Positions 16,231 to 63,565 of a stretch of DNA of 64,000 nt are shown here, piece after piece (the first letter of the stretch is position 1; the number at the start of each line of letters is the position of its first letter). Under the pieces are notes generated by a model that ran no database searches, had not been told where the DNA came from, and saw only the letters and a list, made by a program, of their open reading frames with translations. This DNA is from Pigmentiphaga humi (lineage in GTDB: Bacteria; Pseudomonadota; Gammaproteobacteria; Burkholderiales; Burkholderiaceae_B): assembly GCF_900606115.1 (NCBI RefSeq), contig NZ_UWPJ01000012.1:62001-126000 (forward strand), read 5' to 3'. A program made the translations under genes and the position numbers.

Positions 16231-16312
16231 AGATCCCCCCCTACGCGCTTACGCGCGCCCCCCAGGGGGCTCTACTTACGGACCGGCGGAGCCGGATCCG
16301 CTGTGCTCTGGG
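16231..16312. repeat. Dispersed GC-rich repeat, copy A
   Basis: The element has two modules. The first (16235-16270) begins with a C-tract, then TACGCGCTTACGCGCG and CCCCCCAGGGGGC. It is identical to 57167-57202. The second (16270-16306), holding ACGGACCGGCGGAGCCGG and ATCCGCTGTGC, is identical over 37 bases to 18776-18812. Each module contains self-complementary stretches (CCCCCAGGGGG; CCGGC-GGA-GCCGG). This copy sits directly after the sucD stop, where it could act as a transcript end. Confidence 0.8.
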
Positions 16313-16335
16313 TGGGAAGGGGTATGTTGGTTTTT

Positions 16336-18700: not shown

Positions 18701-18825
18701 TATAGCACCCCCCCTTACGCGCTTCGCGCCAAGGAAGCCCGCCCCCTACCCGCTTCGCGGGCCCCCTCGAGGGGACTCTACTTACGGACCGGCGGAGCCG
18801 GATCCGCTGTGCGCGGGGTCTGAGA
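18701..18825. repeat. Dispersed GC-rich repeat, copy B
   Basis: This copy has a C-tract with CGCGCTTCGCGCC, an extra inserted segment (CCCGCTTCGCGGGCCCCCTCGA) and the 37-base module at 18776-18812 shared exactly with copy A. It ends 7 bases before the stop codon of the minus-strand lipoprotein gene, so like copy A it lies at a 3' end. Copies A and B flank sucCD as direct repeats about 2.5 kb apart. Confidence 0.8.
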
Positions 18826-51929: not shown

Positions 51930-52415
51930 TTACAGGAACCGGTCCAGCATGCGCCGGCTCGCCCGGTCGAGCTTGTCCAGGTCGCGGATCAGGAAATGGA
52001 TGCCGTGGCCGTCCGAGATCAGCAGCTTGGACTGCGAGATGCGGCGGATGTCCTGCTCGCTCTTGAGCGCCAGCCGGGCCTCGCCGCGGCTGGTCTCGAC
52101 GGTCCAGGCAGTAGGCGTCACGTAACTGTCCACCGACACGATGCGCAAGATCTCCGGCATGAACTCGCGGCGCGCCAGTTCGTCCCTGACCAGGTCGCGC
52201 GCCTGCGGCGGCAGCTCGTCGAGCCGGGAAATCCACGCCACTTCATGGCCGGTAGGGCCGACCAGCGAAATATCCTCGGATTCGGTATCGATGGGGAAAG
52301 CGCGCACCGGCACGACCTCTTCGGCGGGGCCGCCGTCGGCGGGCGTATGGATCAGCCGGCCGAAGGCGTTGCGGCTCAGCATGAAGGGAAAGCCGTTGCT
52401 GGCCGGGATGCTCAT
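51930..52415 (-). CDS. DUF1854 protein (cyanophycin-locus associated)
   Basis: The protein has 161 residues. VVPVRAFPIDTESEDISLVGPTGHEVAWI and TPTAWTVETSRGEARLALKSEQDIRRI are typical of DUF1854 proteins, which are found beside an ABC exporter and cyanophycin synthetase genes in many proteobacteria. No catalytic motif is evident. Its start overlaps the ABC gene's stop by four bases, implying joint function with that transporter. Confidence 0.8.
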   Translation of the reverse strand: MSIPASNGFPFMLSRNAFGRLIHTPADGGPAEEVVPVRAFPIDTESEDISLVGPTGHEVAWISRLDELPPQARDLVRDELARREFMPEILRIVSVDSYVTPTAWTVETSRGEARLALKSEQDIRRISQSKLLISDGHGIHFLIRDLDKLDRASRRMLDRFL

Positions 52416-54679
52416 GACTCCTCCTCGCTCCAGGTATTGTCGCTGCCCGGCGGATCGAGCTGGCGGGTCTGCGCCTGGTGCAGGCGATAGTACGCGCCGC
52501 CCTTGGCGATGAGGTCTTCGTGGCGGCCTTCCTCGACGATGCGGCCGCGGTCCAGCACCACCAGGCGGTCGGCCCGGCGCAGCGTGCTCAGGCGATGCGC
52601 CACGGCAATCGTGGTGCGGCCCTGCACCAGGTTGTCCAGGGCCTTCTGGATCTCCTGCTCGGTGGAGGTATCCACCGAAGATGTCGCTTCGTCCAGGATC
52701 AGGATACGCGGATCGATAAGCAGCGCCCGGGCGATCGAAATACGCTGGCGCTCACCGCCCGACAAGGCCTGGCCCCGCTCGCCCACCAGCGAGTCGTAGC
52801 CGTGCGGCAGCCGCAGGATGAACTCGTGGGCATGGGCCGCCCGCGCCGCGGCGACGATTTCCGCGCGCGTGGCATGGGGCTTGCCGTAGGCGATGTTCTC
52901 GGCCACGGTGCCGAAGAACAGGAAGGGCTCCTGCAGCACGACGCCGATGTTGTGGCGGTACTCGGGGATGGACAGCGCGCGGATGTCCACGCCGTCCACC
53001 TTGATCGAGCCCTGCGATACGTCGTAGAAACGGCAGATCAGGTTGACCAGCGTGCTCTTGCCCGAGCCGCTGTGGCCCACCAGGCCGATCATCTCGCCCG
53101 GCGCGATGTCCAGGTCGATGCCGCGCAGCACGGCGCGCGTGCCGTAGCGGAACACCGCGTCGCGGATCTGGATGCGGCCTTCCACATGCGCGAGCGGCAC
53201 CGGGCTGGCCGGCTCGGGCACGCTGGAGACGCGGTCCAGGATGTCGAAAATGCGCTTGGCGCCGGCCGCCGCCTTCTGCGTGACCGAGACGATGCGGCTC
53301 ATGGAATCGAGCCGCAGGTAGAAGCGGCTGATGTAGGCCAGGAAGGCGGCCAGCACGCCGACCGAGATGCGATGGTTGGCGATCTGCCAGATGCCGAAGA
53401 TCCAGACCACCAGCAGCCCCACTTCGGTCAGCAGGATCACGGTGGGCGAGAACATGGACCACACCGTGTTGACCCGGTCGTTGACCGCCAGGTTGTGGTT
53501 GTTCGCCTCGCGGAACCGCGCCACTTCGCGCTTTTCCTGGGCGAAGGCCTTGACCACGCGAATGCCGGGAATGGTGTCGGCCAGCACGTTGGTGATCTCG
53601 GCCCAGTTGCGGTCGACCTTCTCGAAGCCATGGCGCAGCTTGTCGCGCACCAGGTGGATGAGCCAGGCGATGAAGGGCAGCGGCAACAGCGTGACCAGGG
53701 CCAGCCAGGGGTCGATCGAGACCAGGATGGCCGCGGTCATCAGGATCATCAGCACGTCGGTGGCGAAATCCAGCAGGTGCAGCGACAGGAACACGCAGAT
53801 GCGGTCGGTCTCGTTGCCGATGCGCGCCATCAGGTCGCCGGTGCGCTTGCCGCCGAAGTATTCGAGCGACAGCTGCTGCAGGTGCTCGTACGCGCTGGTG
53901 CGCAGGTCCGCGCCTATGCGTTCGCTGACCCAGGCCAGGATGTAGGTGCGGCTCCAGCCCAGCACCCAGGCCACGAGCGCCGCGGCCAGCAGGCCCGAAA
54001 GATAGAACCCGGCCAGTTCGTAGTCGATGGGCTGGCCGTTCTGGAACGGGATCAGCACGTCGTCCATCAGCGGCATGGTCAGGTACGGCGGCACCAGCGT
54101 GGCCGCGGTGGACAGGACGGTCAGGATGAAGCCGGCGATCAGCCGGCCGCGGTACGGACGCGCGAAGCGGCGCAGCCGCAGCAGCGCCCAGCCTTTGGGC
54201 GCGCTTTCGGCGTCCTCGTCCTCACAGGCGGGGCACACGGACTCGCCCGGCGGCAGCGCGGCGTGGCAGCGCGGGCACGCCGGCGCCAGCCGCACGGCCA
54301 CGCCCCCCTCGGCCAGCGCCGCGAGCTGGCGTTCGAATTGCTCGGAAAAGCGCACCGCGCCCACGTGGTGGGCCATGGTCGTGCGCCACAGCGCCAGGCG
54401 CTCCCGCGCGTCCGCGAGTTCGATCCCCACCACGCCGGCGTGGTCGGACAACGCCAGCTTCAGGCCCTCGTGCAGCGGCCACGCTTTCCAGCCCTGCACG
54501 CCCTGCGCCGCCGACAGCAGGCGCCGCTCGGTCAGGATGAGCAGCCCGCGCGCATAGCGCAGGTCGGTGTCGAGATCCAGCTCGACCCAGGCGCAAAGGC
54601 TTTCTCCTTCGGCCATCGAGGGCAATGCCTGGTCGCGCCAGGCGTCGGGCAGGGAGGCGAATGGGGAAGGCGCGGTCAT
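52412..54679 (-). CDS. ABC exporter (fused TMD-NBD) with N-terminal zinc ribbon, cyanophycin-locus type
   Basis: The protein has 755 residues from the ATG at 54677-54679. About 130 residues of unknown fold are followed by a four-cysteine zinc ribbon (CPRCHAALPPGESVCPAC, near residues 134-154). Then come a six-span exporter domain (about 165-480) and an NBD with GHSGSGKST near 535, LSGGERQR near 641 and ILILDEATS. The frame extends to a TTG at 54697. It diverges from the cyanophycin synthetase genes. Transported substrate unknown; the family is known by association with cyanophycin clusters, not by a proven function. Confidence 0.88.
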   Translation of the reverse strand: MTAPSPFASLPDAWRDQALPSMAEGESLCAWVELDLDTDLRYARGLLILTERRLLSAAQGVQGWKAWPLHEGLKLALSDHAGVVGIELADARERLALWRTTMAHHVGAVRFSEQFERQLAALAEGGVAVRLAPACPRCHAALPPGESVCPACEDEDAESAPKGWALLRLRRFARPYRGRLIAGFILTVLSTAATLVPPYLTMPLMDDVLIPFQNGQPIDYELAGFYLSGLLAAALVAWVLGWSRTYILAWVSERIGADLRTSAYEHLQQLSLEYFGGKRTGDLMARIGNETDRICVFLSLHLLDFATDVLMILMTAAILVSIDPWLALVTLLPLPFIAWLIHLVRDKLRHGFEKVDRNWAEITNVLADTIPGIRVVKAFAQEKREVARFREANNHNLAVNDRVNTVWSMFSPTVILLTEVGLLVVWIFGIWQIANHRISVGVLAAFLAYISRFYLRLDSMSRIVSVTQKAAAGAKRIFDILDRVSSVPEPASPVPLAHVEGRIQIRDAVFRYGTRAVLRGIDLDIAPGEMIGLVGHSGSGKSTLVNLICRFYDVSQGSIKVDGVDIRALSIPEYRHNIGVVLQEPFLFFGTVAENIAYGKPHATRAEIVAAARAAHAHEFILRLPHGYDSLVGERGQALSGGERQRISIARALLIDPRILILDEATSSVDTSTEQEIQKALDNLVQGRTTIAVAHRLSTLRRADRLVVLDRGRIVEEGRHEDLIAKGGAYYRLHQAQTRQLDPPGSDNTWSEEES

Positions 54680-54716
54680 GAGCGGGGAGTGCCCCAAATT
54701 AGCAACATAAGGGTTT

Positions 54717-55030: not shown

Positions 55031-57295
55031 ATGAACCGCAAACGCATTGACATCCTGAACGTGCTATCCCTGCGCGGCCCCAGCATGTGGACATATCCGC
55101 CCGTGCTGGAAGCCTGGGTGGACATTGGCGAGCTGGAGGATTTTCCCTCCAACCTGATTCCCGGCTTTTACGAGCGCCTGTCCAGCTGGCTGCCTACGCT
55201 GATCGAGCACCGCTGCAGCTACGACGAGCGCGGCGGCTTCCTGCGCCGGGTGCAGGAAGGCACCTGGCCCGGGCATATCCTGGAGCACGTCACGCTGGAA
55301 CTGCAGAACCTGGCCGGACTGCCCGGCGGCTTCGGCAAGGCCCGCGAAACGTCCACCCGCGGCGTGTATCGCGTGGTGGTCAGCGCCTACCAGGAAGAAG
55401 TCACCCGCGCCGCCCTGGCCACCGCGCGCGACCTGGTCATGGCCGCCATCGAGGACCGGCCGTTCGACGTCCCGGGCGCCCTCGACGCGCTGCGCGACCT
55501 GGTCAACGAATACTGGCTCGGCCCCAGCACCGCCAGCATCGTACAGGCGGCCGAAGATAGGCGCATTCCGTACATTCGCCTGAACCAGGGCAATCTGGTC
55601 CAGTTCGGCTACGGCGCCGCCCAGCACCGCATCTGGACGGCCGAGACCGATCGCACCAGCGCCGTGGCCGAAGGCATCGCCTGCGACAAGGACCTCACCA
55701 AGAGCCTGCTGCAGGCCTGCGGCGTTCCCGTTCCCGAAGGACGCATGGTCCAGAACAAGAACGACGCCTGGGAAGCGGCGCAGGACATCGGCCTGCCCGT
55801 GGTGATCAAGCCCTGCGACGGCAACCATGGACGCGGCGTATTCCTGGACCTGAACACGCGCGAAGCCATCGAGACCGCATTCGGCGTCGCCAGCGGCGAG
55901 GGCAGCGGCGTCATCGTCGAACGCTACGTGCCGGGCAACGAACACCGGCTGCTGGTCGTGGGCGACCGCCTGGTGGCGGCCGCGCGCGGCAAGACCGCGT
56001 CGGTGACCGGCGACGGCAAATCGACCATCCTCGAACTGATCGCCGCGCAGCTCAACTCCGACCCGCGCCGGGGCAATACGGAAGAGCATCCGCTGAACCT
56101 GGTGGCGCTGGATTCGGCGGCCCGCATCGAGCTCGAACGCCAGGGCTGCCACGGCGACGCCGTCCCGCCCGAAGGCGAGGAAGTGCTGATCCAGCGCAAC
56201 GGCAACGTCGCCTTCGACTGCACCGACGAAGTCCATCCCTCCATCGCCGCCCACGTGCGGCTGGCGGCCCGCATCGTCGGCCTGGACATCGCCGGCATCG
56301 ACCTGGTGGCCGAGGACATCTCCCGGCCGCTGGAAGAGCAAGGCGGCGCCATCGTCGAAGTGAACGCCGGCCCCGGCCTGCTCATGCACCTGAAGCCCGC
56401 CGACGGCCAGCCGCGCCCGGTGGGCCGCGCAATCGTCGATCACCTTTTCCCCAACGGCGGCGAAGGACGCATTCCGCTGGTCGGCGTCAGCGGCAGCCAC
56501 GGCACCACCCTGGTGACGCAGCTGGTCGGCCAGTTCCTGCGCCTGTCCGGGCTGCGCATGGCGGCGGCCTCCAGCGAAGGCCTGTTCTTCGACCGGCGCC
56601 GGGTGCAAGCCGACGGCGCAAGCTGGGAAGCGGCGCGCCGCGCGCTGCGCAACCCCATGATCGAGGCCGCCGTGATCGAGAACGGCGCGCGCGCCATCCT
56701 GACCGAGGGCCTGGCCTACGACCGCTGCCAGGTCGGCGTGATCACCAGCCTGGACCCGGCCCAGACCCATCCCGACCTTTCCATCCTCGAGCCGCAGCAG
56801 ATCTACAACGTGCTGCGCACCCAGGTCGACGTGGTGCTGCCGACCGGCTATGCGGTGCTCAACGGCGACGACGGGCAGGTCGCCGACATGGCCCGGCTGT
56901 GCGACGGCGAGGCGATCTTCTATGCGCTCGACCGCGGCAACGCCCGCGTGGCCGAGCACCTGGCGCAAGGCAGGCGCGCGGTCTATGCAGCCGGCGGCGC
57001 CATCGTGCTGGCGCAGGGCGAAGCGGTCACCGAGCTCACGCCGCTGTCGGCCATCCCCTGCCTGGCCGGCCACGGCGACCTCGGACTGGTGCTGGCCGGC
57101 GTGGCCGCGGGATGGGCGCTGGACCTGCCGCTGGACTGTCTGCGCGCGGGCGTGGAGAGCTACAGCCCCCCCCTACGCGCTTACGCGCGCCCCCCAGGGG
57201 GCGGCACTGGCGGACTGGCGGAGCCAGATCCGCTGTGCCCTGGGTCGGGCGGGGGGCTGGCGTACGCGCCGGGCAGTGCGCAGCACCATGAATAA
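55031..57295 (+). CDS. Cyanophycin-synthetase-like protein, degenerate P-loop and truncated C terminus
   Basis: The protein has 754 residues. The N-terminal domain (VLSLRGPSMWTYPPVLE) and ATP-grasp domain (DKDLTKSLLQACGVPVPEG, VIKPCDGNHGRGVFLDL, IVEVNAGPGLLMHLKP) are intact and resemble the neighbouring CphA. The Mur-ligase-like domain is altered: the ATP-binding loop reads GVSGSHGTTL near residue 486 instead of GTNGKTT. Homology stops near residue 711; the last 44 residues are encoded by repeat copy D and look foreign (RAYARPPGGGTGG). The Mur-ligase C-terminal lobe is therefore missing. It cannot do the Arg-adding step as CphA does; it may assist CphA or be decaying. Confidence 0.85.
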   Translation: MNRKRIDILNVLSLRGPSMWTYPPVLEAWVDIGELEDFPSNLIPGFYERLSSWLPTLIEHRCSYDERGGFLRRVQEGTWPGHILEHVTLELQNLAGLPGGFGKARETSTRGVYRVVVSAYQEEVTRAALATARDLVMAAIEDRPFDVPGALDALRDLVNEYWLGPSTASIVQAAEDRRIPYIRLNQGNLVQFGYGAAQHRIWTAETDRTSAVAEGIACDKDLTKSLLQACGVPVPEGRMVQNKNDAWEAAQDIGLPVVIKPCDGNHGRGVFLDLNTREAIETAFGVASGEGSGVIVERYVPGNEHRLLVVGDRLVAAARGKTASVTGDGKSTILELIAAQLNSDPRRGNTEEHPLNLVALDSAARIELERQGCHGDAVPPEGEEVLIQRNGNVAFDCTDEVHPSIAAHVRLAARIVGLDIAGIDLVAEDISRPLEEQGGAIVEVNAGPGLLMHLKPADGQPRPVGRAIVDHLFPNGGEGRIPLVGVSGSHGTTLVTQLVGQFLRLSGLRMAAASSEGLFFDRRRVQADGASWEAARRALRNPMIEAAVIENGARAILTEGLAYDRCQVGVITSLDPAQTHPDLSILEPQQIYNVLRTQVDVVLPTGYAVLNGDDGQVADMARLCDGEAIFYALDRGNARVAEHLAQGRRAVYAAGGAIVLAQGEAVTELTPLSAIPCLAGHGDLGLVLAGVAAGWALDLPLDCLRAGVESYSPPLRAYARPPGGGTGGLAEPDPLCPGSGGGLAYAPGSAQHHE
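57165..57250. repeat. Dispersed GC-rich repeat, copy D, inside the 3' end of the cphA-like gene
   Basis: Bases 57167-57202 are identical over 36 bases to the first module of copy A (16235-16270). The second module (GGCGGACTGGCGGAGCCAGATCCGCTGTGCC) follows with a few changes. The copy is read in frame as protein and the stop codon comes 43 bases after it, so the repeat sets the C terminus of the protein. Confidence 0.85.
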
Positions 57296-57316
57296 ATGAA
57301 TCAGGAACACAGACAC

Positions 57317-59935
57317 ATGGAAGTCTCACGTATCCGCGCGCTGCGGGGCCCCAATCTGTGGAGCCGCCGCACCGCGCTCGAAGCGATCGTTTCCTGCGAC
57401 GAGGCCGAACGCGACATCGCCCGCATCGCCGGCTTCGAAGACCGCCTGCGCGCGCGCTTTCCCGCCATCGGACTGCTCCAGCCCGTGGGGCAGGAGAACG
57501 CGATCCCGCTGGCGCGCGCGCTGGGCCTGACGGCGCTGGCGCTGCAGGCGCAGGCCGGCTGCCCGGTCACCTTCCTGGCCGCGGTGCCCACGCTGGAATC
57601 CGGCATCTACCAAGTCGCGGTCGAGTACACCGAAGAAGCGGTGGGCCGGCTGGCGCTGGAGCTGGCCGAGCAGCTGTGCGCGGCCGCCGTGCGGGATGCG
57701 CCCTTCGATCTCGAAGCCGCGCTGGCCCGGCTGCGCGATCTCGACGAAGACGTGCGCATCGGCCCCAGCACGAGCGCAATCGTGCAGGCCGCCGTGCAGC
57801 GCGGCATCCCGTTCCGCCGCCTGACCGAGGGCAGCCTGGTCCAGTTCGGCTGGGGCAAGCGCCAGCGGCGCATCCAGGCGGCCGAAATGGACCGCAGCAG
57901 CGCCATCGCCGAATCGATCGCGCAAGACAAGGAACTGACCAAGATGCTGCTGCACACGGCCGGCGTGCCGGTGCCGCAAGGACGGCCGGTAAGCGACGCC
58001 GAAGACGCCTGGGCCGCAGCGCAGGAGATCGGCGCCCCGGTGGTGGTCAAGCCGCAGGACGGCAACCAGGGCAAGGGCGTGGCGGTCAACGTCTCGACCC
58101 GCGAACAGGTGCTCGCGGCCTACGAAGTGGCCGAGCGCTACGGCTCGTCGGTCATGGTCGAGCGCTACATCCCCGGCCACGATTTCCGCCTGCTGGTGGT
58201 CGGCAACGCGCTGGTGGCGGCCTCGCGGCGCGATCCGCCCCAGGTGTTCGGCGACGCGGTCCACACCATCCGCGAACTGGTCGAGGAGGTCAACAAGGAT
58301 CCGCGGCGCGGCGAAGGCCACGCCACCAGCCTGACCAAGATCCGGCTGGACGACATCGCCATGGCCACGCTCGCCAAGTCCGGCTATACGCCCGACTCGG
58401 TCCCGCCCAAGGGCGCGCTGGTGATCCTGCGCAACAACGCCAACCTGAGCACGGGCGGCACCGCCACCGACGTGACCGACGACGTGCATCCGGAATTCGC
58501 CGCCCACGCCATCGCCGCGGCGCGCACCGTCGGCCTGGATATTTGCGGGGTGGACGTGGTCGCCGGCACCGTCATCCAGCCCATGGAAAGCCAGGGCGGC
58601 GCCATCGTCGAGGTCAACGCCGCGCCGGGCCTGCGCATGCACCTCGCGCCTTCCTACGGCAAGCCGCGCGCGGTGGGCGAAGCCGTCATCGCCGACATGT
58701 TCGCGTCCGACGACGACGGCCGCATCCCGCTGGTGGCCGTAGCCGGCACCAACGGCAAGACCACGACCGTGCGCCTGATCGCCCACCTGCTCGGCGCGAA
58801 GGGCCACACCGTGGGCATGACCAATTCCGACGGCGTCTACATCGGCGCGCAGCGCATCGACGTGGGCGACTGCAGCGGCCCGCGCAGCGCGCGCAACGTG
58901 CTGCTGCACCCCGACGTGGACGCGGCGGTGTTCGAAACCGCGCGCGGCGGCATCCTGCGCGAAGGCCTGGGCTTCGACCGCTGCGACGTCGCGGTGGTCA
59001 CCAACATCGGCATGGGCGACCACCTGGGCCTGAACTTCATCAGCACCGTCGAAGACCTCGCCGTGGTCAAGCGCGTGATCGTCGAGAACGTCGCGCCCAC
59101 CGGCACCGCCGTGCTCAACGCCGCCGACGCCAACGTCGCGGCCATGGCCGAAGCCTGCCCGGGTTCGGTGATCTTCTTCTCCAGCGACCGCCAGCACACG
59201 CTGATCACGACCCATCGCGCCAAGAACCAGCGCGTGGTCTACCGCGACGGCGACGACATCGTCGCGGCACAGGGCGGCGAGGAACACCGCATCGCGCTGG
59301 CCGGCATTCCCATCACCTACGACGGCGCCATCGACTTCCAGGTCGAGAACGCGATGGCGGCCATCGCCGCCGCCTGGGCGCTGGGGCTGGATTGGGACAC
59401 CGTGCGTCGCGGCGCGGGCAGCTTCGTCAACGACGCGCAGACCGCTCCCGGGCGCTTCAACCGCTTCACCTTCCGCGGCGCCACCGTTTTCGCCGACTAC
59501 GGCCACAACCCCGACGCCATCCATGCGCTGGTGCGCGCGATCGAGCGCATGCCCGCCAACCGGCGCTCGGCGGTCATCAGCGGCGCCGGCGACCGGCGCG
59601 ACATCGACATCCAGAAGCAGACCGAAATCCTCGGCGCGGCGTTCGAGCAGGTCGTGCTGTACGAAGACCAATGCCAGCGCGGCCGCCAGGACGGCGAGGT
59701 GCTGGCGCTGCTGCGGCGCGGCCTGGAAGGCGCCACCCGCACGCGCGACGTGCGCGAGATCCGGGGTGAGTTCCTCGCCATCGATACGGCCCTGGACGAA
59801 TTGCAGCCGGGCGACCTGTGCCTGATCCTGGTCGATCAGGTGGAAGAGGCGCTGGCCCACATTGCCGGGCGCATCGCCGACGACGCGCTCAAGGGCGCGA
59901 CGCTGTCCCCAGCCGGTCTATCAGCCGCGCATTGA
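57317..59935 (+). CDS. cphA: Cyanophycin synthetase
   Basis: The protein has 872 residues, the family size. MEVSRIRALRGPNLWSRRTALEAIV fits the CphA N terminus, so the ATG at 57317 is preferred over one 21 bases upstream that abuts the previous stop. The ATP-grasp domain adds aspartate (DKELTKMLLHTAGVPVPQG; VVKPQDGNQGKGVAVNV). The Mur-ligase-like domain adds arginine: P-loop GTNGKTTTVRLI near residue 476, ARGGILREGLGFDRCDV, and the C-terminal lobe with GRFNRF, DYGHNPDAIHALV and ISGAGDRRDIDI. It makes the Asp-Arg storage polymer in cytoplasmic granules. Its 3' end overlaps the convergent arginase-like gene by 47 bases. Confidence 0.95.
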   Translation: MEVSRIRALRGPNLWSRRTALEAIVSCDEAERDIARIAGFEDRLRARFPAIGLLQPVGQENAIPLARALGLTALALQAQAGCPVTFLAAVPTLESGIYQVAVEYTEEAVGRLALELAEQLCAAAVRDAPFDLEAALARLRDLDEDVRIGPSTSAIVQAAVQRGIPFRRLTEGSLVQFGWGKRQRRIQAAEMDRSSAIAESIAQDKELTKMLLHTAGVPVPQGRPVSDAEDAWAAAQEIGAPVVVKPQDGNQGKGVAVNVSTREQVLAAYEVAERYGSSVMVERYIPGHDFRLLVVGNALVAASRRDPPQVFGDAVHTIRELVEEVNKDPRRGEGHATSLTKIRLDDIAMATLAKSGYTPDSVPPKGALVILRNNANLSTGGTATDVTDDVHPEFAAHAIAAARTVGLDICGVDVVAGTVIQPMESQGGAIVEVNAAPGLRMHLAPSYGKPRAVGEAVIADMFASDDDGRIPLVAVAGTNGKTTTVRLIAHLLGAKGHTVGMTNSDGVYIGAQRIDVGDCSGPRSARNVLLHPDVDAAVFETARGGILREGLGFDRCDVAVVTNIGMGDHLGLNFISTVEDLAVVKRVIVENVAPTGTAVLNAADANVAAMAEACPGSVIFFSSDRQHTLITTHRAKNQRVVYRDGDDIVAAQGGEEHRIALAGIPITYDGAIDFQVENAMAAIAAAWALGLDWDTVRRGAGSFVNDAQTAPGRFNRFTFRGATVFADYGHNPDAIHALVRAIERMPANRRSAVISGAGDRRDIDIQKQTEILGAAFEQVVLYEDQCQRGRQDGEVLALLRRGLEGATRTRDVREIRGEFLAIDTALDELQPGDLCLILVDQVEEALAHIAGRIADDALKGATLSPAGLSAAH

Positions 59936-60767
59936 GCGCGAGCTGCTGCGCCTGCCAGTCGGCCAGGCGCTCGGCCGACGGCGCCTGCTGGCCGTCGGCG
60001 GCGCTCAGCCAGCGCTTCCACCACGCGCGGTAGCGATACAGCGACACCTCGCCGGTGATGTCGCTGCCGATCACGGTGCCGGCGAGCGCATCCAGCGCGG
60101 CGTACAGGTGCGATTCGCGCAGCACGCCCTGGTCCCAGTTCGTCCGGGCCACGTCGGGGCTGAACACGTCCTTGTCGATGGAAACATAGGCCGGCTCGCG
60201 CGATGCGGCCAGCATGGGCAGGACCGCCTGCATCAGCGCCTCGGGCCCGGCGAAGCTGCGCACCGCGCTTCCCAGGCCGGCCATCCTGGCCCAGCCCACG
60301 CCCACGTCCATGCACCAGTAGCTCAGCTTGCCCGCCGCCAGCGGCCGCAGGTAATTCTCCCAGCTGTGCCGCCAGCCCACGTCGCCCGAGGTAATGCCGA
60401 TCACGTGCACGTGCGAGACGAAAGGCAGCCGGGCCACGCGCCGCACCCACGAGCCGCAATGGATGCCGAAGGCGTAGCGCATGTTGTCCGGATGGTTGTC
60501 GAACACGATCACCCGGAACGGTCCGCGCTCGTGCCGGCGCTCGATCAGCGGCCAGCTCAGGTGATGGAAATCGCCGCTGCCCATCAGTACCGGACCATGG
60601 CTGGCCGGCATGCGCGCATCCAGGTGGTCGCGCAGCCTGCGAAAGGCGGCGAGCGAGCAGCCGAAGCGCGCGGTCTCCTGCCAGTCCTGCAGCGGCACCA
60701 CCTCGGCGCCCGGCATGCCGAGGCAGGAACCGTCGAAATCCAGCACCAGCGGCGCAGGCGTGCTCAT
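59889..60767 (-). CDS. Arginase/agmatinase-family (ureohydrolase-like) protein
   Basis: The protein has 292 residues from the ATG at 60765-60767. The ureohydrolase fold motifs are recognisable but altered: GSGDFHHLSWPLIE for the first metal motif, IVFDNHPDNM for DAHxD, and AYVSIDKDVFSPDV for the SxDxDxxDP motif. Some metal ligands may differ, so classical arginase activity is uncertain. Beside cphA an arginine- or guanidino-hydrolysing role in cyanophycin turnover is reasonable. It overlaps the GNAT-like gene upstream by four bases and converges on cphA. Confidence 0.8.
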   Translation of the reverse strand: MSTPAPLVLDFDGSCLGMPGAEVVPLQDWQETARFGCSLAAFRRLRDHLDARMPASHGPVLMGSGDFHHLSWPLIERRHERGPFRVIVFDNHPDNMRYAFGIHCGSWVRRVARLPFVSHVHVIGITSGDVGWRHSWENYLRPLAAGKLSYWCMDVGVGWARMAGLGSAVRSFAGPEALMQAVLPMLAASREPAYVSIDKDVFSPDVARTNWDQGVLRESHLYAALDALAGTVIGSDITGEVSLYRYRAWWKRWLSAADGQQAPSAERLADWQAQQLALNARLIDRLGTASRP

Positions 60768-61873
60768 GGCCGCGCCCCCCCGTCGCGCCAGGCGCGATCG
60801 CTTTCGAAACGGCCGGCAAAACGCGCCAGCACGGCGCGCAGCAGCGGGTTGCGGATGTACACGGCATGCCGGGTGAAGGTGAATGCCGCGCCCAGGTAGG
60901 ACTTGATCTGCGGGTCGGTCCAGCCGGCGATGTAGTGGCGCAGCCCGCGTTCGATGGCGTACTCGAGATTGACCATCCAGCTCACGAAATACAGATTGTG
61001 CTCGCGCGCCTCGGGATAGAGAAAGCCGACGTATTTGTCGACCAGGTTGCCGTCGCACTCGTAGCAGAGGTTGTAGCCTATCATCCGGCCGCCATGCCGG
61101 TAGACGAACACGACGCCGCCGCTGGCGGCATCCTGCAGCACACGCTGGAAGAACGACGCAGTCAGCCGGTCGAAGTGGATCTCGCTCTGCGCGTAGACGT
61201 TCTCGTAGAGCGCATAGAATTCGGCCAGCACGGCAGGCTCGAAAAAGCGCGGATCGCCGACCGGCACGCGCTCGATCTCCAGTTGCGCGCGGGCGCGCAG
61301 CTTACGGCGGATATCCTTGCGGCGCGAGTGCGACAGGCGCGCCAGGTAGTCGTCCACGCTGGCGAAATCCACCGCCACGTAGGCCAGCGCCTGGCCTTCG
61401 ACCAGCACGAAGCCCTGCTCCCGGCAGGCTTGCGCCAGCGCCTGAGCGTGCGCGTTTTCCGCGGTGCTCAGCAGCGGCGAATCCTGGGGAAGATCCTTGA
61501 CGATCAGCAAGGGCTGGCGCGTCCCCTGCTCGTGCCGGAGCCGGCCGGCCAGCGCGGCCGGTTCGGTGCCGGAAGCCAGCAGCGCGTATTCCGATACGGT
61601 GGTGCCGACGAAGGCGGTGCGCGGCTGCAGCAGTCGGCGCCACAACCGGAAGCCGGGCAGGCGCCGGACCAGCCGGCGGGTGGATTCGTCGGCCGTGGTC
61701 AGCAGGTCGAAGCGGGCGCTGAACATCGGCCCGCCGTCGCCCGTCACCCACGCGGTGAAGCCCTCCGGCGGGCAGGCCAGGAAATGGCCCACCAGCCCTT
61801 CGGGTTCGAGGCGATTCAGGTAAGGCCGCATGAAGTCCGGGCGGGCGCCCGGACCGTCACGCTCAGCCGCCAT
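60764..61873 (-). CDS. GNAT/FemAB-like acyl- or aminoacyl-transferase family protein
   Basis: The protein has 369 residues. The C-terminal half (LARLSHSRRKDIRRKLRARAQLEIERV, FYALYENVYAQSEIHFDRLT, VFVYRHGGRMIGYNLCYE, RGLRHYIAGWTDPQIKSYLGA) has the look of the FemAB/BioF2-like GNAT group. Such enzymes transfer acyl or aminoacyl groups. It is coupled to the arginase-like gene (ATGA overlap) and overlaps the aminotransferase gene by 11 bases, so all three are one unit. Its role in cyanophycin metabolism is not known to me. Confidence 0.75.
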   Translation of the reverse strand: MAAERDGPGARPDFMRPYLNRLEPEGLVGHFLACPPEGFTAWVTGDGGPMFSARFDLLTTADESTRRLVRRLPGFRLWRRLLQPRTAFVGTTVSEYALLASGTEPAALAGRLRHEQGTRQPLLIVKDLPQDSPLLSTAENAHAQALAQACREQGFVLVEGQALAYVAVDFASVDDYLARLSHSRRKDIRRKLRARAQLEIERVPVGDPRFFEPAVLAEFYALYENVYAQSEIHFDRLTASFFQRVLQDAASGGVVFVYRHGGRMIGYNLCYECDGNLVDKYVGFLYPEAREHNLYFVSWMVNLEYAIERGLRHYIAGWTDPQIKSYLGAAFTFTRHAVYIRNPLLRAVLARFAGRFESDRAWRDGGARP

Positions 61874-63239
61874 TCTTCGCGCGGGTCAGCAACTGGTCGA
61901 GCAGCGCCAGGCCCTGGTCGATTTCCTCGGGCGTGATGTGCAGCGACGGCGCGAAGGTGATGACGTTCTTGTAATAGCCGCCCACGTCCAGCACCAGGCC
62001 CATCTTCTTGCCGTTGTAGTCGAGGTCGCCGGACAGGCCGATGTCGACCATGCGGTCCAGCAGCGCCTTGTTGGGCGTGAAGCCGTCTTCGGTGCAGATC
62101 TCGGCGCGCAGCGCCAGGCCCAGGCCGTCGACGTCGCCGATCTCGCGGTGGCGCTTCTGCAGGTCCTTCAGGCCCTCCAGGAAGTGCGCGCCGCTCTTCA
62201 TGACCATGGACTCGTAATCGACCTCGGCCAGCATCTTCATGGTTTCCAGGCCCACGGCGGTGCCGAGCGGGTTGGAAGCGAAGGTCGAGTGGGTCGATCC
62301 CGGCGGGAACACGGTCGGGTTGATCAGTTCTTCGCGCGCCCACAGGCCGGCCAGCGGGTTCAGGCCGTTGGTCAGCGCCTTGCCGAACACCAGCACGTCG
62401 GGCTTGACGCCGAAGTGCTCGATGGCCCAGAGCTTGCCGGTGCGGTAGAAACCCATCTGGATCTCGTCGACCACCAGCAGGATGTTGTACTGGTCGAGGA
62501 CTTTCTTGAGGCCCTTGAAGAAGCTGGCCGGCGGCACGACGTAGCCGCCCGTGCCCTGGATCGCCTCGACGTAGAAGGCCGCGTATTCGGCCTGCTCGAC
62601 CTTGGGATCCCAGACGCCGTTGTATTCGGTCTCGAACAGGCGGGCGAAGCCGGCCACGCAATGCTCGCTGTATTCCTCGGCCGTCATGCCGCGCGGACGG
62701 CGGAACGGATACGGGAAGGGCACGAAGTGCGCGCGCTCGCCGAAGTGGCCGTAGCGGCGGCGGTAGCGGTAGCTCGAGGTGATGGCCGAGGCGCCCAGCG
62801 TGCGGCCGTGGTAGCCGCCCTCGAACGCGAACATCAGGCTCTTGCCGCCCGTGGCGTTGCGCACCAGCTTGAGCGAATCTTCGACGGATTGCGAACCGCC
62901 GACGTTGAAGTGGACGCGGCCCTTGTAGCCGAACTTGCGCTCGGCGTCCTGCGCGATGACTTTGGCCAGTTCGATCTTGGTCGGGTGCAGGTACTGGCTG
63001 GCGACCTGGGGCAGCACGTCGATCTGCTGCTTGAGCACATTATTCAGGCGCTCATTGCCATAGCCGAAGTTGACCGCCGAATACCACATCTGCAGGTCGA
63101 GATAGGCCGTGCCCTTGGCATCGTATATATAGCTGCCTTCGCAGCGTTCGAAGATCTTGGGCGGATTGACGTAGTGGACTGTATCGCCGAACGAACAATA
63201 TTGCGCTTCGTCCGCCAGCAATTGGGATTCGGAACTCAT
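61863..63239 (-). CDS. Class III PLP aminotransferase
   Basis: The protein has 458 residues from the ATG at 63237-63239. RVHFNVGGSQSVEDSLKLVRNATGG, EGGYHGRTLGASAI, LLVVDEIQMGFYRTG and the Schiff-base Lys287 in LVFGKALTNGLNPLAG are all intact. Family members act on omega-amino groups of ornithine, acetylornithine, GABA and similar compounds. Joined to the arginase-like and GNAT-like genes beside cphA, it could process ornithine or another breakdown product of cyanophycin. Exact substrate unproven. The open frame extends upstream to 63368 without family similarity. Confidence 0.87.
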   Translation of the reverse strand: MSSESQLLADEAQYCSFGDTVHYVNPPKIFERCEGSYIYDAKGTAYLDLQMWYSAVNFGYGNERLNNVLKQQIDVLPQVASQYLHPTKIELAKVIAQDAERKFGYKGRVHFNVGGSQSVEDSLKLVRNATGGKSLMFAFEGGYHGRTLGASAITSSYRYRRRYGHFGERAHFVPFPYPFRRPRGMTAEEYSEHCVAGFARLFETEYNGVWDPKVEQAEYAAFYVEAIQGTGGYVVPPASFFKGLKKVLDQYNILLVVDEIQMGFYRTGKLWAIEHFGVKPDVLVFGKALTNGLNPLAGLWAREELINPTVFPPGSTHSTFASNPLGTAVGLETMKMLAEVDYESMVMKSGAHFLEGLKDLQKRHREIGDVDGLGLALRAEICTEDGFTPNKALLDRMVDIGLSGDLDYNGKKMGLVLDVGGYYKNVITFAPSLHITPEEIDQGLALLDQLLTRAKNGG

Positions 63240-63565
63240 GGAATGGAAAGCCTCGGAATAGAGGGGGCAGCCGCAGTTCGCTGCCGGGCTGGCGCCCTGT
63301 TTAGCCGTTACGAAATCATCGTCGAACAAGACCCGGCCCCTGCCTGCCCGCCGCTGCGGTCTGCTCACGGGAAAACCCGGATGAAGGAATGATATCCGCC
63401 GCGGGTCGTAACATACGCGGTGTGAAGAAACATTTCAATTACTATTCTGTTAACTGCGGCGCCGCAACCACGAAGCATCGTCCCGCTGGCAAAACAGACA
63501 GTAAGATCACCGAACTCCGCGGCTGGTGCCCCCGCCGCGGCCTCTCCGCCCTGCCCGCGTCCTCC
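63240..63565. other. Divergent intergenic region
   Basis: About 326 bases separate the aminotransferase (minus) from the efflux lipoprotein gene (plus). The AT-rich patch at 63419-63450 (GTGAAGAAACATTTC, ACTATTCTGTTAA) is the likeliest promoter area. I see no clear operator, repeat or RNA gene. Confidence 0.5.

Follow-up and report, generated by a model that had tools for sequence, protein, structure and literature searches.

Cyanophycin synthetase CphA1 is a one-chain machine, mostly with three active sites, and at the locus described here these sites are apparently split over two genes. In CphA1, the N-domain motif Cx19HxxEH forms the primer-making site and is found in 83% of the CphA1 sequences in nr70, and the isolated N domain of Synechocystis CphA1 (SuCphA1), supplied in trans, made TmCphA1 primer independent (PMC9262961). 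In the ATP-grasp (G) domain, His267 and Arg309 stabilize the acyl-phosphate, and the incoming aspartate (Asp), which sits in a small space beside Ser396, contacts Asn394 and Arg323 through its beta-carboxylate and Arg458 through its alpha-carboxylate (PMC9427784). A CphA1/CphA2 tandem has been described in Sideroxydans by authors who stated that no betaproteobacterial cyanophycinase gene was then known (PMC5178258), two CphA homologues are described in Cupriavidus necator (PMC11362209), and it has been stated as an open point that betaproteobacteria with cphA mostly lack a recognizable cyanophycinase (PMC10206079). The DNA that we analyzed, here called the window, is a stretch of 64,000 nucleotides from Pigmentiphaga humi (contig NZ_UWPJ01000012.1, positions 62,001 to 126,000, forward strand). 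It holds gene A (CphA-prime), a truncated cyanophycin synthetase paralogue of 754 amino acids on the plus strand at 55031..57295, recognized by its open reading frame, by alignment, and by the NCBIfam model NF010623, and directly behind it, also on the plus strand and recognized by open reading frame and alignment, gene B, a full-length CphA of 879 amino acids at 57296..59935. An earlier interpretation of this DNA, the sequence-only reading, had placed the tandem at exactly these coordinates, and the paired cphA genes of betaproteobacteria that it mentioned are indeed already in print.

We consider it rather probable that A and B form a divided cyanophycin synthetase, in which A, with a re-tooled ligase of its own, cuts chains in trans to the polymerase B; the activities are assigned to both proteins by analogy with published mutants of homologues. 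B would be the polymerase, its ATP-grasp domain adding Asp and its Mur-ligase (M) domain adding arginine (Arg), and it would have lost the primer-making N site. The N-domain site of A would cut cyanophycin-like chains in trans to primers or short chains, while the Mur-ligase domain of A may have become dispensable and been repeatedly lost down to a structural core. The ATP-grasp domain of A would have been re-tooled for a nucleophile other than free Asp, and our guess for this substrate is a beta-Asp-Arg unit. An ATP-binding cassette (ABC) exporter and a DUF1854 protein would act in the same pathway, plausibly carrying its product across the membrane, where both direction and cargo are guesses on our part. 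The basis of this proposal, namely the partition of residues between the two proteins, its conservation, the domain-wise selection, the sister relation of the two genes, and the co-occurrence, is observed in this analysis.

In the window, the N domain of A carries the motif C-x19-HxxEH (CSYDERGGFLRRVQEGTWPGHILEH) at 55214..55288 (plus strand, by alignment), which in CphA1 is the primer-making hydrolase site (PMC9262961). It is followed on the same strand by the ATP-grasp domain (55517..56470, limits approximate, from alignment) and by a remnant of the Mur-ligase core (56471..57166, limits approximate, from alignment and predicted structure). With residues numbered as in SuCphA1 on the basis of alignment, the G domain of A keeps K220, K261, H267, R309, N394, D431, and E450, but R323 is changed to G, R458 is changed to L, and the loop 396-400 is missing. 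The Mur-ligase loop at 495-501 reads GSHGTTL in A versus GTNGKTT in B and SuCphA1, ETARGG is replaced by ENGARA, and the catalytic DH (585-586) is replaced by QT. The C-terminal lobe, which in B comprises 167 residues from position 724 onward, has no counterpart in A, whose homology to SuCphA1 stops at residue 713; the altered loop and the lost lobe had both been reported by the sequence-only reading. In B, the motifs GTNGKTT, ETARGG, DH, DYGHNP, and GDRRD are intact, as is the Asp pocket with R323, N394, R458, and the S396 loop, and B deviates from CphA1 in that the N motif is lost and H267 is changed to Q. B passes both NCBIfam models, the subfamily model NF010623 and the equivalog model, whereas A scores 1022.6 bits on NF010623 (cyanophycin synthetase subfamily; cut-off, 877) and, with 704.1 bits, fails the equivalog model (cut-off, 850).

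The same partition is found in the relatives. Sequences were read at 79 loci from 77 genomes, picked to span genera, together with the window and the loci L045 and L052, and the site tables made from them cover 81 A proteins and 79 B proteins, those of the window among them; L052_A, which is cut by the locus end, was left out of the tables and a longer version of it was examined separately, L111_B, which is in two pieces, was counted as one protein, and the class singles L053-L057 were not counted as B. The N motif is present in 79 of the 81 A proteins and in 0 of the 79 B proteins. Among the ATP-binding and catalytic residues of A, K220, K261, R309, and D431 are kept in 81/81, E450 in 80/81, H267 in 78/81, and N394 in 77/81. 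R323, on the other hand, is replaced in all 81 (G in 78, S in 3), as is R458 (L in 78; I, M, and Q in one each), and the Asp-binding loop is shortened by five residues, including Ser396, in 81/81 A, compared with 0/78 B and 0/12 single-gene CphA1 proteins. K220, K261, R309, R323, N394, E450, and R458 are kept in 79/79 B, as are the Mur-ligase NGKTT and DH; D431 is kept in the 79 B that cover the position properly, one L111 fragment being misaligned there, and H267 is Q in 78/79. Eleven single-gene CphA1 proteins from the same order or class keep the N motif, H267, both arginines, the loop, and DH, and three further ones are incomplete, G087s having S at 59 and being otherwise canonical and G154s1 and G154s2 having lost the N motif and carrying Q267 (this count excludes G323, which is split over contigs, and G233, which is divergent and partial). 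A scan for class-specific sites over a 724-position core, at a threshold of 85% and against 12 single-gene CphA1 proteins including SuCphA1, returned 267 as the only B-derived site, and A-derived sites at 1, at 540, and, within the G domain, at 188, 203, 307, 323, 353, 393, and 458; several of the G-domain sites lie at or next to substrate contacts published in PMC9427784.

Because both arginines are replaced and the Ser396 loop is shortened in every A, the sequence-only reading was probably wrong to regard A as an enzyme with only the Asp-adding half, and its remark that the ATP-grasp motifs of A are conserved holds for the ATP-binding and catalytic residues but not for the two Asp-binding arginines and the five loop residues. 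A pocket that is altered and opened and yet conserved points to a ligation reaction in which the nucleophile is not free Asp. Among the three roles that had been put forward for A, priming of the backbone fares best, although the likely route is the N-terminal hydrolase site, which had gone unmentioned and which B does not have.

A (81 proteins) and B (75 proteins) are sister clades in a tree that holds no CphA2, with support of 1.0 for A plus B, 0.961 for A, and 1.0 for B (L052_A, L107_B, L111_B, L111_Bb, L115_B, L128_B, and fragments were excluded). Of 18 comparisons between genomes, which are not mutually independent, 17 give a lower rate of nonsynonymous substitution (dN) for the N domain of A than for that of B; for the M core, 15 give a higher dN in A, two give a lower one, and one is a tie. 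The ratio of nonsynonymous to synonymous substitution (dN/dS) is below 0.15 for the N and G domains of A in 18/18 comparisons and 0.24-0.49 for its M core in seven Pigmentiphaga-type comparisons. Over 2628 pairs from 73 genomes, a set that does not include the window or loci whose partner gene is cut or absent, dividing the mean distance in A by that in B gives 0.81 for the N domain, 1.03 for the G domain, and 1.67 for the M core, and the A distance exceeds the B distance in 16% of pairs for N and in 99% for the M core. These ratios indicate that A relaxes M, that B relaxes N, and that both G domains are constrained. The earlier suspicion that simple decay does not account for A is thus supported by purifying selection on its N and G domains and by the retention of the N motif, found in 79 of 81 proteins.

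The A/B tandem is widespread in Burkholderiales. In samples of 101 genomes from the family, 250 from the order, and 274 from the class, which share few genomes and in which pairs were called from the number and identity of matches, CphA-type matches were found in 52 family genomes, all 52 with at least two, in 94 order genomes, and in 14 class genomes. At 77 of 79 loci, A and B share a strand and A precedes B, the remaining two loci holding the second A of G060 and of G086, which have no adjoining B. Of the 81 A proteins, 61 are cut short at one and the same point, and the other 20 are full length (L131_A being scored so although its lobe has only 97 residues). All 20 full-length A keep NGKT or NGKS plus DH, whereas among the truncated A, NGKT is kept in 0/61 and DH likewise in 0/61. 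The A proteins of the relatives L137, L138, and L201 and of the same-genus loci L058 and L059 stop at 723-724 residues, and window A is 84% identical to that of P. kullae and 70% identical to that of P. litoralis (best segment). Among the closest 80 loci, which we refer to as the named loci and which are mostly from Achromobacter, Cupriavidus, Pandoraea, and Ralstonia, A is full length in 72, truncated in 7, and not recognized in 1; A proteins whose loop is unbroken and whose C terminus is long are found there in Achromobacter, Cupriavidus, and Bordetella species, and in two C. necator strains the A of the pair is full length. Relatives of this kind, 20 of the 81 in the site tables, had been expected by the sequence-only reading to point to a local pseudogene, but the truncation is shared across the order, and a local pseudogene is ruled out by conservation and selection.

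The terminal lobes of 19 full-length A proteins (L131_A excluded) have a mean identity of 38% and a maximum of 42% to those of their own B, which rules out that full-length A gained the lobe by conversion from B (the lobe is not visible in L107_B, L115_B, and L128_B, where contigs or stretches end). This low identity indicates that the lobe of full-length A is old, and full length is therefore taken as ancestral, which amounts to 11 losses on a tree in which several nodes are weak; unconstrained parsimony alone prefers truncation as ancestral, with 3 changes. In three loci of the genus g35, L104-L106 (G034, G090, and G066), A is strongly diverged and its Mur-ligase signatures are not recognizable, the loop being replaced by GGDELKH, GGDEILG, and GGKEIDG.

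A few exceptions help to separate the parts of A. In G060 and G086, two genomes of one genus, a second A lies on another contig; the A that adjoins B no longer has the N motif (it reads PHEH and QEEQ), and the other A retains it, so that at least one CHEH is present in every genome sampled (77/77). The two genomes examined from family f142, a family beyond the order, are G433 and G554, and both have an A with damage to its ligase site. From the A of G433, 74 core positions are absent; 62 of these fall within 323-400, and the G domain is short of 69. This A carries K220R, H267A, D431A, and E450D and keeps the N motif (CHEH), and its identity to window A is 66% in the N domain and 39% in the residual G domain. 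The A of G554 carries H267L, E450A, and R458Q and likewise keeps the N motif. These few cases point to the N site as the indispensable part of A and suggest that a B with Q267 probably works without the ligase of A. The B of G554 (L135) has H267 and is nested among Q-bearing B proteins, its sister L052_B (G433) having Q, and this H267 is likely a reversion. A change of Q267 to H in the B of G554, together with H267L and E450A in its A, could be a compensating change.

Several points weigh against a divided synthetase with a re-tooled ligase in A. Q267 and the loss of the N motif also occur in the two CphA1-like genes of G154, which are unpaired with an A. In G066 and G090, H267 is present in neither protein, the A of both also having Q267. 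Q267 may leave B with a G site that is weak or changed; alanine at this position impairs SuCphA1 and TeCphA1 (PMC9262961, PMC9427784). The 20 of 81 A proteins that have a Mur-ligase loop, DH, and lobe may still ligate something, and a working G433 system would mean that the A ligase is dispensable in that genome. Finally, wild-type C. necator, with its two CphA homologues, reportedly makes no cyanophycin (PMC11362209, citing Adames 2013). The rule that each genome keeps one His267 holds in 75 of 77 genomes but fails in G066 and G090, and we rejected it. The two genes of G154 (G154:C1:5339469-5345837; loci L231 and L245) are divergent extra copies, without the N motif and with Q267, in a genome that also has an A/B pair.

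The alternative that survives best, and that can hold alongside a divided synthetase, is that A is a CphA2-like ligase of beta-Asp-Arg dipeptides, for which we see somewhat less than an even chance. In its truncated form A has the architecture of CphA2, which has no Mur-ligase P-loop and no lid (PMC9427784); the P-loop and the lid of the M domain are absent, too, from 61 of the 81 A proteins, that of the window included. The ATP-binding and catalytic residues are kept while the Asp pocket is altered and newly conserved, and the change of R323 to G together with the loss of five loop residues could fit a larger unit without a free beta-carboxylate. However, R458, the contact of the alpha-carboxylate, is lost as well, the ligase site is damaged in both f142 genomes, and CphA2 is described as lacking the N-domain active-site motif (PMC9262961), which A has in 79 of 81 proteins. 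Measured against CphA1, window A has the Cx19HxxEH of the N domain and lacks the Mur-ligase ATP loop with DH as well as the Asp-binding R323, R458, and Ser396 loop. It is closer to CphA1 in sequence, scoring 504.9 bits versus 191.7 for CphA2. Its predicted structure matches CphA1 with a query-based template-modeling score (TMq) of 0.84-0.86, at 38-39% identity to SuCphA1, versus a TMq of 0.66 at best for CphA2 structures.

On the minus strand, divergent from A, lies a gene of the ABC exporter type (52412..54697) that matches NF052233, "cyanophycin metabolism-associated ABC transporter", and next to it, also on the minus strand, a DUF1854 gene (51930..52415) that matches NF052234, "cyanophycin metabolism-associated DUF1854 family protein". 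Both score above the curated cut-offs (1359.9 versus 880 and 213.2 versus 150), and the exporter type is assigned from Pfam and NCBIfam matches. Among the named loci, the divergent ABC gene is present in 80/80 and DUF1854 in 79/80, L173 being a short contig. At 80 other A loci (L045 and L058-L136), an ABC match was found within the fetched short stretch in 76, of which 73 are divergent and 3 point in the same direction (L097, L100, and L101); it is missing at L095 and L098, which are A copies without B, and at L115 and L130. The ABC gene was not found in the short flanks of 14 single-gene CphA1 loci or in three short stretches of G433. DUF1854 is present in 51/52 match-bearing genomes of the family sample versus 0/49 others, and in 85/94 of the order sample versus 0/156 others, the nine misses being six genomes of one genus plus G210 and G233, all eight without a recognized pair, and the fragmented G219. 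In the class sample, it occurs in 8/274 genomes, five with the pair, including both f142 genomes, and three without a CphA match. In G242, G278, and G300, it is kept on the same contig although far from the pair. A cyanophycinase above the cut-off was found in one of the 101 family genomes, G087, where it adjoins an additional single-gene CphA1 away from the A/B pair; matches below the cut-off occur in four others, G060 (broken) and G033, G077, and G000 (weak).

The transporter hints at a product that leaves the cytoplasm, and the polymer may be what it exports. More specifically, though we hold this to be somewhat unlikely, the pair could be a two-subunit synthetase for an exported cyanophycin-like polymer or oligomer, in which B polymerizes Asp and Arg, A trims chains to a length suited to priming or export and adds or caps with a unit other than Asp, and the ABC and DUF1854 proteins secrete the product; if true, this would explain why cyanophycinase is rare in pair-bearing genomes. 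It is possible, but in our view not quite probable, that the locus instead makes an ordinary intracellular cyanophycin store, with the ABC and DUF1854 genes as bystanders or acting elsewhere. B has all the checked residues for Asp and Arg ligation except H267, published authors class these genes as storage genes (PMC5178258, PMC10687191), and three genomes of the class sample carry DUF1854 while having no CphA match. Storage is harder to reconcile with the co-occurrence of DUF1854 with CphA-type matches in the family and order samples, with its co-retention where it is unlinked, and with a cyanophycinase above the cut-off in only 1 of 101 family genomes. DUF1854 is also found in Sulfolobus acidocaldarius, which served as a control, and the class genomes without a CphA match that carry it are G343, G385, and G525; its presence in such genomes indicates other roles or partners of DUF1854.

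A could also be a scaffold, for the polymer or in a hetero-oligomer with B, its ATP-grasp domain being a nonligating structural or regulatory partner. The M core remnant is kept as if for packing: the model of window A has a mean predicted local distance difference test (pLDDT) score of 90.1, the fold of the remnant is predicted with high confidence (pLDDT mostly above 90), and values below 50 occur only at 717-754. Damage to the G site in the two f142 genomes would also fit. We nonetheless regard a mere scaffold as unlikely, given that K220, K261, R309, and D431 are kept in every A, E450 in 80, and H267 in 78, and that the G domain of A is constrained about as much as that of B (ratio of 1.03), unlike the M core. 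That A is a decaying duplicate is very improbable, since the loss of its Mur-ligase loop, DH, and lobe, an M core dN/dS of 0.24-0.49 in the Pigmentiphaga-type comparisons, and the partial losses in G433 and G554, the nearest approach to a loss of A with B kept in the genomes examined, stand against a dN/dS below 0.15 for N and G in 18/18 comparisons, at least two CphA-type matches in 52/52 match-bearing family genomes, and a single truncation point in 61/81.

The last codons of A are encoded by a copy of a dispersed repeat (57165..57255, no strand assigned, from a repeat search), which is translated as a disordered tail. The repeat is about 80 to 90 bases long, has at least 44 matches in its own genome, its own place included, with 40 of 267 candidates scored, and has three copies in the window (57165-57255, 16235-16322, and 18739-18820). 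We rejected A residues ~713-754 as a remnant of the lobe, as this DNA is the dispersed repeat and the residues are predicted to be disordered, and the repeat likewise rules out the tail as a functional extension. The conserved start of B is probably the ATG at 57317 (MEVSRIRALRGP), which is favored by identical DNA at the start of B in five close relatives. Downstream of B, on the minus strand at 59889-63368, lie arginase-family, FemAB-like, and class III aminotransferase genes; these were ruled out as members of the system, as they stand beside the pair in 3/80 named loci, the closest relatives only. Elsewhere, four single-gene CphA1 loci of the genus g83 (L223-L226) have a second Mur-ligase-like stretch near downstream that is 30-33% identical to the Mur domain of B. 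Three viral contigs of 58-176 kb (L247:2998-3735, L248, and L249) encode the same protein, a stand-alone CphA N domain in a frame of 246 amino acids with Cx19HxxEH intact (CSVGRAGGFFKRVKEGTWMGHIIEH) and no ATP-grasp domain in the frame, possibly a phage-borne cyanophycin-cutting enzyme. Among 22 records from a plasmid collection, none gave a cyanobacterial hit.

Taken together, these findings describe an apparently split pair retained across an order and associated with a transporter. They offer a handle on why betaproteobacteria with cphA mostly lack cyanophycinase (PMC10206079) and on the role of the two CphA homologues of C. necator if no cyanophycin is seen there (PMC11362209), and they raise the question of whether a nitrogen-rich polymer is exported instead of stored. 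If A and B do divide the work of one synthetase, B expressed alone should give a poor polymer, which would be useful to cyanophycin producers. The tandem with an ABC gene (PMC10687191) and, by NCBIfam name, the association of the ABC and DUF1854 families are already known; those names, NF052233 and NF052234, state an association with cyanophycin metabolism and no tested role. In the open-licence literature that we searched, no description was found of the division of sites, the altered Asp pocket, the repeated truncation, or the DUF1854 link, and the word DUF1854 is absent from it.

Among known systems, the "Group 1" cluster (PMC10687191) resembles this locus in having two cphA copies, an ABC transporter, and no cphB; a composite transposon was suggested there from flanking insertion sequences, and active sites are not compared in the cited parts of that work. 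The tandem has been named CphA1/CphA2 (PMC5178258), whereas A and B are sisters by descent. Truncated A resembles cyanobacterial CphA2, which is also without a Mur-ligase P-loop and lid (PMC9427784), but differs from it in keeping the N motif, in being nearer to CphA1, and in adjoining B in 77 of 79 loci. With CphA1 (SuCphA1, TeCphA1, and TmCphA1), both A and B share the domain order N-G-M, and B shares the M-domain motifs and the Asp pocket. In CphA1, however, the N, G, and M sites lie in one chain, TmCphA1 being without the N site (PMC9262961), whereas in this pair only A has the N site, only B has the M site where A is truncated, and one G site is changed in each protein.

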